From a virus: 29,624 nt of DNA. Under the pieces are notes generated by a model, which was not told the DNA's origin, ran no database searches, and worked only from the letters and a program-made list of their open reading frames with translations. The position numbers and the translations under genes are program-made. The DNA lies in the IMG/VR virus record IMGVR_UViG_3300009164_000251, positions 1 to 29,624 of that record; one strand, 5' to 3'. Shown in pieces: positions 4,565 to 21,162 of this stretch (within the stretch, counting starts at the first letter, position 1; each line of letters begins with the position of its first letter).

Positions 4565-5524
4565 TTAGTTAGCCGAGTTAGTGATACCGTAAGTAACGAT
4601 ATCTTCAACAGCACCGTATTGAACGCCAGCAGTCATTCTCATAACTACTCTGACATTCTCACTGCCATCTACATCTGCCATATCAATAACCTTAACGGAA
4701 GAAGAATCCATATCAGCTAGAACACCAGTACCGAAGTATAAGTTATCCTTGATAGTAGCGATTGCTTTGTTAGAAGCTAAACCGTTTGCTACGAAGATTT
4801 TAACACCATCGAAAGAAAGAGAACCATTGTTATACCATTGAGTTCCCATTGCGTTAGAACCGTTAGCTCCTAAACCTGATGCACCAAAACCACCTAAAGC
4901 ACGAACATAAGCACGAGCGATATTTTGAGATACATAAAGGTAAAGACCATCGTTTCCGTAAAGAGCTGCAGGGATCGCATCAACAATCTTGCCTAATTCC
5001 GCAACTACGTTAGCTGCAGTTACAGTAGTTCCAGCAACCTCATTGGCTGCAGGTAAAGAAGCATCCGTAGTTAATAAAGTAACGAAACCATCGAACTCGC
5101 CAGCGTTAGCAGTAACACCAGACCAAATGTTAGTCTCATTCTTGGCAGCAACTTTAGAAGCTACGTGAGCTACTAAGAAATCAGCGAAAGAAGTTGGAAG
5201 AACATCAAATGCTGAATAACCTTGTTGAGCTGATAACCAGTCCGAATGAAAGTCTTTTTTGCATAATTGTAAATTTACTTGAAATTCCTCTGGAGTTAAA
5301 ACACGCTCCGTTAAAGTAACCGTAGAAGTTGCATCAAAATCACAAGAAGCATTTTTTAAGATTGCATCCGTAGAGATTTTCTTGATAACTTCTTTGTACT
5401 TGATACCTGGTTTAACCATAATTCCACCAGCGTCGATAGTTGGGGAAGACAAAAGAGCTGCAGAGATAATTTGATTCTTAAACTCGCCTGCATAAGTAGT
5501 TGTAATACTGGTCGTAGTAGCCAT
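4565..5524 (-). CDS. Major capsid protein, HK97-fold type (319 aa)
   Basis: The length, N-terminal flexible segment (MATTTSITTTYAGEFKNQII), central region with helix and strand alternation, and C-terminal strands (NVRVVMRMTAGVQYG near 288-302) fit HK97-fold capsid proteins of Bacteroidetes siphoviruses. Gly/Ala/Asn-rich stretches such as GGFGASGLGANGSNAMG (about 213-229) look like an exposed loop. The gene follows a protease and a coiled-coil scaffold-like gene, the usual head-assembly order, and is directly followed by a terminator, which fits a highly expressed virion protein. No obvious N-terminal scaffold domain is fused to it, so scaffolding probably comes from the upstream 197-aa product. 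Confidence 0.85.
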   Translation of the reverse strand: MATTTSITTTYAGEFKNQIISAALLSSPTIDAGGIMVKPGIKYKEVIKKISTDAILKNASCDFDATSTVTLTERVLTPEEFQVNLQLCKKDFHSDWLSAQQGYSAFDVLPTSFADFLVAHVASKVAAKNETNIWSGVTANAGEFDGFVTLLTTDASLPAANEVAGTTVTAANVVAELGKIVDAIPAALYGNDGLYLYVSQNIARAYVRALGGFGASGLGANGSNAMGTQWYNNGSLSFDGVKIFVANGLASNKAIATIKDNLYFGTGVLADMDSSSVKVIDMADVDGSENVRVVMRMTAGVQYGAVEDIVTYGITNSAN

Positions 5525-16145: not shown

Positions 16146-16566
16146 TTTCTTCTAAGTGAACGTTATAAACTTGTCTAATTTGTCCGATATAATCTCGCCA
16201 ACAAGAAGAACAACTAGAGTTCTCTAAACGGATTCCAAAGATTCTAAAATAAATATCCGTTAAATCCCATTGCGTTTTAGGGGGTATTTCGTTTTGTGGT
16301 TTACTAAAGAAGTCTTGTAAGTATTCAAAGTCCTCTACTTGTAAACATTGCGGTTTACGATAAGACCAAAGTTGGTTTAACTTCTCTTTGCGTTCGTCAC
16401 ATCCACAATCCCAATCTAAGGCTTTAGATAATAAAGTAATTCCCGCCTTAATTCCCGTTGCGGTTGTGATTGCCTCAATGGTATCCCCTAGCCCTTGAGC
16501 GTTTGCAAATGTAGCAACCTCTTTAGGCTCTACACTAATTGCTTGTTTGTTTGGTTTTCTTGCCAT
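16132..16566 (-). CDS. Cys-rich, possibly zinc-binding protein of unknown role (144 aa)
   Basis: I use the internal ATG at 16566 (protein start MARKPNKQAISVEP) because the farther ATG at 16587 increases overlap with the sigma-like gene from 37 to 58 bp without adding conserved-looking sequence. A Gly/Ala-rich segment (GLGDTIEAITTATGIKAGIT) precedes the cysteine motif DWDCGCDERKEKLNQLW (C54, C56), then C74 and a C-x2-C near the end (SSCSSCW, C119 and C122). Five cysteines could hold zinc. I know the CGCDERKEKLN-type motif from Bacteroidetes phage and prophage proteins of unknown function. It lies between a sigma-like factor and a HAD phosphatase just before the terminases. Confidence 0.7.
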   Translation of the reverse strand: MARKPNKQAISVEPKEVATFANAQGLGDTIEAITTATGIKAGITLLSKALDWDCGCDERKEKLNQLWSYRKPQCLQVEDFEYLQDFFSKPQNEIPPKTQWDLTDIYFRIFGIRLENSSCSSCWRDYIGQIRQVYNVHLEENASN

Positions 16567-16991
16567 TCCTTTAATTTTAGTTTGCATTTTTTGATTGTAT
16601 TGTAAACGCTCATAAATCCTATGTTCGTTTCTCTTGAAAGTTTTCTAATTGAAATTCGATTATTAACCCAAAGCATAAATAGCTTCTTATCATACCAATC
16701 CCAAGTATCTATAAACTCAATATATGGTTGAGCTAGTTCTTCGGCTAGTTCGTTGCTTTCGTCTTCTCGTAAGCTATACTCGATATCTTGCGTTACCTCT
16801 ACCTTAACCACCTTCTTAGAATGTAAGTCCATCGTAAGGCTTCTAAGCGTATAGTAAAAATAAGCTTCATTAATATCTTTTCCATAAACTTTAATGTATG
16901 CTTCTTGGACTACATCTTCGGCATAATTTACCTCGCCAAACTTCTTAACCATTGCGACCCAATGTTTGTGCCGAGAGTAGATATGATCCAT
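16530..16991 (-). CDS. Sigma-70/ECF-like factor, candidate late transcription regulator (153 aa)
   Basis: The N-terminal half looks like sigma region 2 (YAEDVVQEAYIKVYGKD, about 23-39, then YFYYTLRSLTMDLHSKK). The C-terminal half has a region-4-like helix-turn-helix (SIRKLSRETNIGFMSVYNTI, about 114-133). The protein is small and lacks a long linker, like ECF-type factors. I chose the ATG at 16991 because it forms a TAATG junction with the upstream 58-aa gene; an ATG at 17027 would add 12 residues. Placed just before the packaging and structural genes, it is a good candidate to switch on late transcription, possibly through a promoter unlike the host TAnnTTTG type. Activity is not shown by sequence alone. 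Confidence 0.65.
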   Translation of the reverse strand: MDHIYSRHKHWVAMVKKFGEVNYAEDVVQEAYIKVYGKDINEAYFYYTLRSLTMDLHSKKVVKVEVTQDIEYSLREDESNELAEELAQPYIEFIDTWDWYDKKLFMLWVNNRISIRKLSRETNIGFMSVYNTIKKCKLKLKEWQENQTNKQLV

Positions 16992-17167
16992 TAAAGAAGG
17001 TAAATATTTTCGGCTACCAATTTCCAATAAATCTTATCGTCAATTCTTTGGCAATACTCGCCAAACATTCCGCACATAAATAAGCAAAGCTCTCGAGCAA
17101 GCATCTTATTACCCGTAAAGTAATAAGCGTTGTTCATTAAAGAAGAGGCTCTTTCGTCTGGTTTCAT
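16991..17167 (-). CDS. Unknown small protein (58 aa)
   Basis: An open frame from ATG 17167 to TAA 16993-16991. It is joined at both ends by TAATG: its ATG uses the last A of the DUF3310 stop, and its own stop shares a base with the chosen start of the sigma-like gene. The product begins MKPDERASSLMNNAYYFTG and has a Cys/Met-rich middle (ELCLFMCGMFGEYCQR). It shows no clear membrane segment and no family I know. The double coupling makes translation very likely and helps fix the start of the sigma gene. Confidence 0.75.
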   Translation of the reverse strand: MKPDERASSLMNNAYYFTGNKMLARELCLFMCGMFGEYCQRIDDKIYWKLVAENIYLL

Positions 17168-20407: not shown

Positions 20408-21053
20408 ATTGTTGTTTAGAATAAATTGTTATTTCGTCGTTAAAGCATTTACCATTTAAATAAGTCAAAGGATTTTTTCGGTATTGAGAATCGGGGTTTG
20501 CATCAACATATTTTTTAACGCTTAAAGTTATTTTATTTATTTCTTCTAAAGTTAATTTATCAAAAATCTTTTCGCATTTAACTCTATCTATTTTCTTATT
20601 ATAGGTTTCCCAGAAATACTCAAAATCTTCTATATTATTTACTTTACTTTCTTTTACTTTACTTTTATTTACTTTAGGAGCGTTACTAACGTGTTCGTTA
20701 CGTGTTACATTTTCGCTAACTTGTTGATTTTCACGCCATTCCGCAATTCGTTTTGCGTTTTTTTCTTTTGAAACTTGATACTTTTGACTAAAGTTTAGTA
20801 ATTGTTTGTTAAAAGTTTCACCATTATTTGTAGAAATCAAATCAATTTCTTCAATAAACTGCCAAACTTTCTCTAATTTCTTACCAACATTTAGCTGATG
20901 CTTTAAGACTTTTGTCTTTATAGGCTTTTCTTGCATTGCAAGCTTTTCCAATATGGTATAAAATAAACCCAAGCCTTCGTAACCATACTCTAGGTAAAGC
21001 TCCGTTATCTTCTCGTCATTAAAAGAACTCGAATCGTGTAGGTAGTATTTCAT
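20337..21053 (-). CDS. DUF4373/Lin1244-like replication initiator protein (238 aa)
   Basis: The N-terminal domain (MKYYLHDSSSFNDEKITEL, then YGYEGLGLFYTILEKLAMQ, residues 24-42) matches the DUF4373/Lin1244-Lin1753 winged-helix pattern found at the start of phage replication proteins. A Lys/Ser-rich linker (about 125-140, KVNKSKVKESKVNN) leads to a C-terminal helical domain with FEYFWETYNKK and YRKNPLTYLNGKCF (about 195-208), the W...YNKK...P-TYLNG pattern of DnaD-like replisome proteins. It is the best candidate to start DNA synthesis, because no polymerase or helicase is encoded. A structured RNA element ends 12 nt before its ATG, so its synthesis is probably controlled. Confidence 0.75.
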   Translation of the reverse strand: MKYYLHDSSSFNDEKITELYLEYGYEGLGLFYTILEKLAMQEKPIKTKVLKHQLNVGKKLEKVWQFIEEIDLISTNNGETFNKQLLNFSQKYQVSKEKNAKRIAEWRENQQVSENVTRNEHVSNAPKVNKSKVKESKVNNIEDFEYFWETYNKKIDRVKCEKIFDKLTLEEINKITLSVKKYVDANPDSQYRKNPLTYLNGKCFNDEITIYSKQQYGTSNDKQPLGTSAARMEALKNW

Positions 21054-21061
21054 TTTGAAAT

Positions 21062-21162
21062 AAAAAAAGCCAGTCTGCGTAGGAGTGCAAATCTGGCTTT
21101 GGTTTTTTAACCCTAAAATAACCGAAGAACTCCTACCCCCTTCGCTTATTGTTTCGCAATAT
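21062..21162 (-). ncRNA. Structured leader with two hairpins whose loops are complementary
   Basis: The last hairpin has a 13-bp stem with one bulge (AAAGCCAG at 21100-21093 pairs with CTGGCTTT at 21073-21066; TTTGC at 21091-21087 pairs with GCAGA at 21078-21074), followed by a T run. Its whole 8-nt loop ACTCCTAC (21086-21079) is the exact complement of GTAGGAGT (21136-21129), which lies in the loop and upper stem of an upstream hairpin (CGAAG 21144-21140 with CTTCG 21127-21123). Further small hairpins are TATTG-CGAAA-CAATA (21161-21147) and GGTT-AAAA-AACC (21112-21101). The element fills the gap between the 88-aa gene and the replication gene and ends 12 nt from its ATG. It may act as an attenuator, a translation switch or a simple terminator. 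Confidence 0.65.

Follow-up and report, generated by a model that had tools for sequence, protein, structure and literature searches.

A putative kissing-loop RNA switch before the replication genes of viruses of Bacteroidota-type bacteria

The window analysed here is the whole 29,624-nt stretch of the phage record IMGVR_UViG_3300009164_000251, the genes of which sit on the minus strand. On this strand, an 88-aa gene (21436-21170; phrog_13625, function not assigned) is separated by a gap of 116 nt from a replication-initiation-type gene (21053-20337), whose product matches Lin1244_N (PF14297; Pfam E-value 2e-5) and a PHROG replication initiation protein (E-value 9e-11). Minus-strand positions 21163-21062 hold, in this order, a -7 promoter box lying just after the stop codon of the 88-aa gene, a hairpin (H1), a small hairpin (H2) and a terminator hairpin (H3), after which the replication gene is the first to follow.

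The terminator hairpin H3 (21100-21066) is composed of 13 bp with a bulged A at 21092 and has a folding energy of -16.1 kcal/mol (z = -5.3), with a terminator T run at 21068-21062; owing to the bulged base it was overlooked by a simple terminator scan. Its 8-nt loop, ACTCCTAC (21086-21079), is the exact complement of GTAGGAGT (21136-21129), which lies in the loop of H1. Both the terminator hairpin and its loop complementarity had been claimed in an earlier note on this DNA, and were borne out by reading and folding of the sequence. The upstream hairpin of that note also exists, although it is longer than the stem described there: H1 spans 21150-21117, with 12 positions per arm (21150-21139/21128-21117) arranged as five lower pairs, a conserved G.G mismatch and then CGAAG/CTTCG, and with a 10-nt loop, GGGTAGGAGT (folding energy -10.5 kcal/mol, z = -4.4). 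Two further small hairpins had been proposed, of which one is conserved (H2, GGTT AAAA AACC, 21112-21101, found in type A and L073-type relatives) and the second is not. The entire 116-nt gap folds with a z of -3.0, and H1 and H3 individually are much stabler than shuffles. The kissing-terminator arrangement was absent from all 3000 dinucleotide shuffles of the gap and occurs at a single site in the window when both strands are scanned; shuffling the complete minus strand 20 times (592 kb in total) produced 6 matches, or ~1 per 100 kb.

The promoter box, TATATTGC (21163-21156), falls in the TAnnTTGY/TAnnTTTG class and is the TAnnTTGY variant of the flavobacterial TAnnTTTG box, which is located at -12 to -5 (PMC9723704). 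With the box at these positions, the predicted RNA begins at the first base of H1 (21151-21150). A TAnnTT(T)G/A box is present in 123 of 128 distinct elements, compared with 22% at random positions, and among these 128 elements its start is mostly found 26-28 nt ahead of the kissing strand, a near-fixed spacing. At the other end, the T run stops at 21062, ~10 nt before the ATG of the replication gene at 21053, and the earlier note was right that no promoter fits into this interval, so that transcription of the operon has to cross the terminator. This predicted obligatory crossing is well supported at the sequence level and is the main argument for attenuation: a terminator hairpin and T run stand between the promoter box and the gene, and a second promoter is absent.

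Relatives of the PF14297 gene were taken from viral contigs, and a covariance model was constructed from 21 upstream regions with the kissing pairs left out of its structure. The model recovers the element in most close relatives, and in all 74 elements listed by this kiss-free model the H1-loop complement is found inside the terminator loop. The two loops vary jointly, with pairs that include GTAGGAG/CTCCTAC, GTCGGAG/CTCCGAC, GTGGTAG/CTACCAC, GTGAGAG/CTCTCAC, GTCGTAG/CTACGAC, GTCAGAG/CTCTGAC and GTCGAGA/TCTCGAC. Type A elements were aligned by segments, MAFFT having misaligned L070 and L073 when run on all types jointly. When 45 distinct type A sequences are compared, standard pairing holds at 100% of the seven core kissing positions, against a mean of 87.9% (maximum 91.1%) in shuffles and 33-60% when the partner was slid, and double changes occur at three of the kissing pairs (41 cells). 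The stems are conserved in the same 45 sequences, H1 being 98% paired with double changes at 10 pairs and the upper part of H3 100% paired; H3 also covaries in relatives, and the G.G mismatch of H1 is present in 40 of 51 distinct elements. Paired loop changes in the leaders of relatives had been proposed as a check, and no independent change was seen in any examined relative having the element. The two complementary hairpin loops are thus kept by paired changes, as expected for an intramolecular kissing loop. A faster evolution of the loops than of the stems was considered and rejected: per-position variability in type A is similar for the H1 stem and the kissing pairs, and any claim of diversification therefore rests on whole-cassette replacement (described below) and not on loop speed.

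A model-free scanner, requiring a hairpin, a complementary loop, a terminator hairpin and a T run, detected the arrangement under strict settings in 91 of 170 distinct upstream regions, compared with 0/170 shuffled regions and 0/154 control windows. Under lenient settings there were 148 raw matches among the 170, 8 of which were dropped as spurious upon reading, and the remaining 140 compare with 5/170 shuffled regions and 1/154 control windows. Because the lenient scanner demands exact 7-nt complementarity, its counts measure frequency and not covariation, and they are a lower bound, since L060, L431 and others were scored absent yet on visual inspection carry a shorter or weaker form. Several architectures retain the kiss. 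In a type with reversed loop polarity, the H1 loop is CTCACTAC and the terminator-borne hairpin carries GTAGTGAG, with the variants CTCTCGAC/GTCGAGAG, CTTCTCAC/GTGAGAAG and CTCCTTAC/GTAAGGAG; small-hairpin types have the loop pairs GTCGTAT/ATACGAC, GTCGCAT/ATGCGAC, ATGGTAC/GTACCAT and GTACCAG/CTGGTAC. The window element is, as far as sequence comparison can indicate, one case of a widespread predicted RNA before replication genes in viruses of Bacteroidota-type bacteria. Related-looking kissing terminators with altered loops (TGGAACA, GGGAAAC) are also present ~560 nt upstream of the replication gene in L074 and L160.

The element behaves as a cassette. The same alleles precede four replication-gene families (PF14297 type I, PF14297 type II, HTH_36/DnaD-like, and DnaA/DnaD-like organizer), and 68 of the 70 elements with sufficient downstream sequence match one of these families from the N-terminus. 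Searches with context-blind patterns returned to the same kind of replication gene, and the cassette was found essentially nowhere else. The replication gene begins no more than ~15 nt beyond the terminator unless an ORF has been inserted. Such insertions, which in some relatives are HNH genes and in others different small ORFs, follow the T run and were never seen within the element, and the distance from element to replication gene then reaches up to 529 nt. The HNH endonuclease genes of L027 (1930-2349) and L080 (4067-4615) lie exactly between cassette and replication gene.

There are ~26 loop alleles, which are nearly orthogonal: the mean loop duplex energy is -11.5 kcal/mol for self pairs and -2.1 kcal/mol for cross pairs, and only 14 of 650 cross pairs come within 3 kcal. 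Mapped on a tree of 133 replication proteins, loop alleles change ~50 times. In the pairs L329/L334, L068/L072, L250/L258 and L372/L374 the cassette alone is replaced, the gene and the upstream DNA being 90-97% identical and the element 55-71%, and alignments of such swapped-cassette pairs break near the -7 box and the T run. In same-allele pairs, the element is 95% identical, above both the gene (94%) and the upstream DNA (82%), indicating that it is conserved or replaced and not drifting. At least seven different loop alleles occur in a single sample, metagenome 3300020043 (L002, L072, L244, L306, L359, L370 and L393), as would be expected if alleles coexist. The record IMGVR_UViG_3300027969_000114 (59,277 bp; L001/L145 and L087/L309) contains two same-allele cassettes before two different replication genes; it has about twice the size of the window, and may represent two phage genomes of ~29.6 kb joined together.

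We hypothesize that the element probably attenuates transcription of the phage replication operon in cis, by means of a kissing loop. Most transcripts would end in the T run, giving a compact RNA of ~90 nt with a hairpin closing each end, and a regulated fraction would read through the terminator into the replication operon. Loops of 8-10 nt with 7-8 of them paired should allow both stems and the kiss to form together, so that the kiss (7-8 bp) would stabilise the terminated state, and blocking it would raise expression of the replication operon. Kinetics could also produce the opposite sign, with early loop pairing delaying closure of the terminator. Inspection of type A by eye revealed no alternative (antiterminator) pairing that is conserved. 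The pairing of AAGCC in the H1 arm with GGCTT in the H3 arm was rejected as an antiterminator, as only some type A sequences have AAGCC/GGCTT. The kissing-loop or pseudoknot attenuator put forward in the earlier note is upheld as to the loop pairing and the link to a replication gene, by covariation and by the scanner, and as to attenuation by position; its resemblance to a RepZ-type pseudoknot is not (see below).

Comparable kissing interactions control plasmid replication. In ColE1, RNA I and RNA II form a loop-loop helix of ~7 bp in which nearly the whole loop is paired, and which is tied to replication. As in ColE1-type kissing complexes, the loop sizes and helix length of the phage element allow stems and kiss at once, but the ColE1 RNAs are an intermolecular antisense pair that controls a primer and not a terminator. 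Kissing hairpins in pT181-type plasmids decide whether an intrinsic terminator forms before the replication gene, and the loop sequence sets specificity (PMC4878617). The partner in pT181 is a separate antisense RNA, with antiterminator pairing (PMC4878617), whereas here the terminator loop pairs with the 5' hairpin in cis. A cis role does not by itself explain why there are ~26 near-orthogonal alleles, or why the cassette is exchanged on its own while its flanks stay almost identical.

Such features suggest a second possibility, which we consider rather unlikely: the terminated ~90-nt RNA might be a self-specific trans RNA that pairs with the nascent same-allele leader of another genome and alters its termination. 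It might in that case serve, again with rather low likelihood, as a copy-number, incompatibility or superinfection control in the manner of P4 CI RNA or P1/P7 C4 RNA. The latter are phage leader RNAs located before a replication or antirepressor operon, which act in trans in temperate elements after RNA processing and in which the partner is not the loop of an intrinsic terminator. The element shares with them the leader position, short complementary hairpin-loop segments, premature termination (predicted here) and segments that change together between types; in contrast, both of its partners are within one RNA, and a match to the Rfam C4 family is absent. One cassette carries both halves of the specificity, and the near-orthogonality of the loops, the frequent allele changes on the gene tree, the cassette-only replacement and the high identity of same-allele elements are all in line with trans recognition; a self-specific trans effect would account for the swapping. 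However, the swaps may be ordinary phage mosaicism, and the two loops of one RNA would mostly be occupied by each other in cis. In addition, no lysogeny gene (integrase, repressor) was recognised among the window proteins searched, in a window that may be incomplete, and gene and terminator-motif searches of 84,980 species genomes, plasmids and named phages found no copy of the element.

The leader of P4 has the order seqA-seqB-seqC, and a comparable second loop target in the same leader is not enriched overall among the phage elements, nor are their own loop 7-mers enriched elsewhere in the same contigs, which argues against a general third target. The same order is met in L058, L060 and L012, where a third H1-loop copy lies over the start-codon region and the terminator loop could thus pair with either copy. 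For L058 and L060, with the copies AACACAC and CAGCAC, respectively, the stretch concerned covers ~110 nt ahead of the ATG at 5001 and 3 nt beyond it; for L012, with the matching segment GGTGTGAA, it lies ~125 nt before the ATG at 2053. We tentatively suggest, at a level of confidence well short of that given to cis attenuation, that in apparently virulent phages the cassette could serve for allele-specific recognition between RNAs, each terminated RNA acting in trans on same-allele leaders only, with swapping driven by selection to escape same-allele competitors; Bacteroidota phages would then possess an incompatibility or superinfection system based on RNA. If the swapping does reflect trans specificity, it would represent a new form of phage-phage interference.

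The predicted start and stop, which give a compact RNA with hairpins closing both ends, could also describe a structured small RNA that the phage makes in its own right and that precedes the replication gene incidentally, the gene being fed by leaky readthrough. We consider this unlikely, given that the cassette precedes four families of replication gene and is essentially confined to this position even in searches blind to context. The earlier note drew a parallel to the pseudoknot control of RepZ in IncI plasmids; control of translation in that manner, through a pseudoknot close to the start codon, appears very improbable. The IncI/IncB RepZ pseudoknot controls translation beside the start codon, and the phage element resembles it in that loops pair over a long range ahead of a replication gene and, in L058, L060 and L012 only, in having a third copy near the ATG. 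In the phage element, the pairing instead engages a terminator and tolerates ORFs, including HNH genes, inserted before the gene in some relatives; the pairing partner does not lie at or near the ribosome-binding site, and general complementarity to the loops is absent within the 60 nt after the element. Least credible is a feature of the DNA itself, such as a replication origin or protein-binding inverted repeats, which the adjacent replication genes and the inverted repeats might suggest, but which is at odds with a promoter box at near-fixed spacing and a T run on one same strand, with complementarity that is loop-to-loop and not palindromic, and with the free combination of the cassette with different replication proteins.

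The comparison with Rfam recommended in the earlier note was carried out for the window and 18 relatives: no family of Rfam 15 was matched at the gathering threshold. A permissive search gave nothing credible, its best sub-threshold scores being far below gathering. Flavo-1 and other Bacteroidetes motifs in Rfam are structured RNAs of the same phylum, and do not match the element. A literature search, incomplete in coverage, yielded no account of an RNA of this sort. Attenuators and kissing loops as such are established, whereas this RNA family and the kiss between a terminator loop and a 5' hairpin appear to be undescribed, and the element seems to be an RNA switch on virus replication that had not been reported before. 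It would add a large unlisted family of structured RNAs from uncultivated phages, placed at the first step of phage DNA replication, and offers a clean tertiary contact between the 5' hairpin of an RNA and its own terminator. The natural allele series provides ready single and compensated loop variants for testing how the tertiary pairing of a terminator loop determines termination, and the alleles could serve directly as mutually orthogonal attenuators in Bacteroidota.

Other minus-strand genes of the window were also noted. A 165-aa protein encoded at 16530-17027 resembles a small sigma factor by eye, with region 2- and region 4-like stretches, and has no Pfam match. The product of 18431-19258 matches the PHROG of beta-glucosyl-HMC-alpha-glucosyltransferases (E-value 1e-70), and a possible role of this glucosyltransferase-like protein is DNA base modification.
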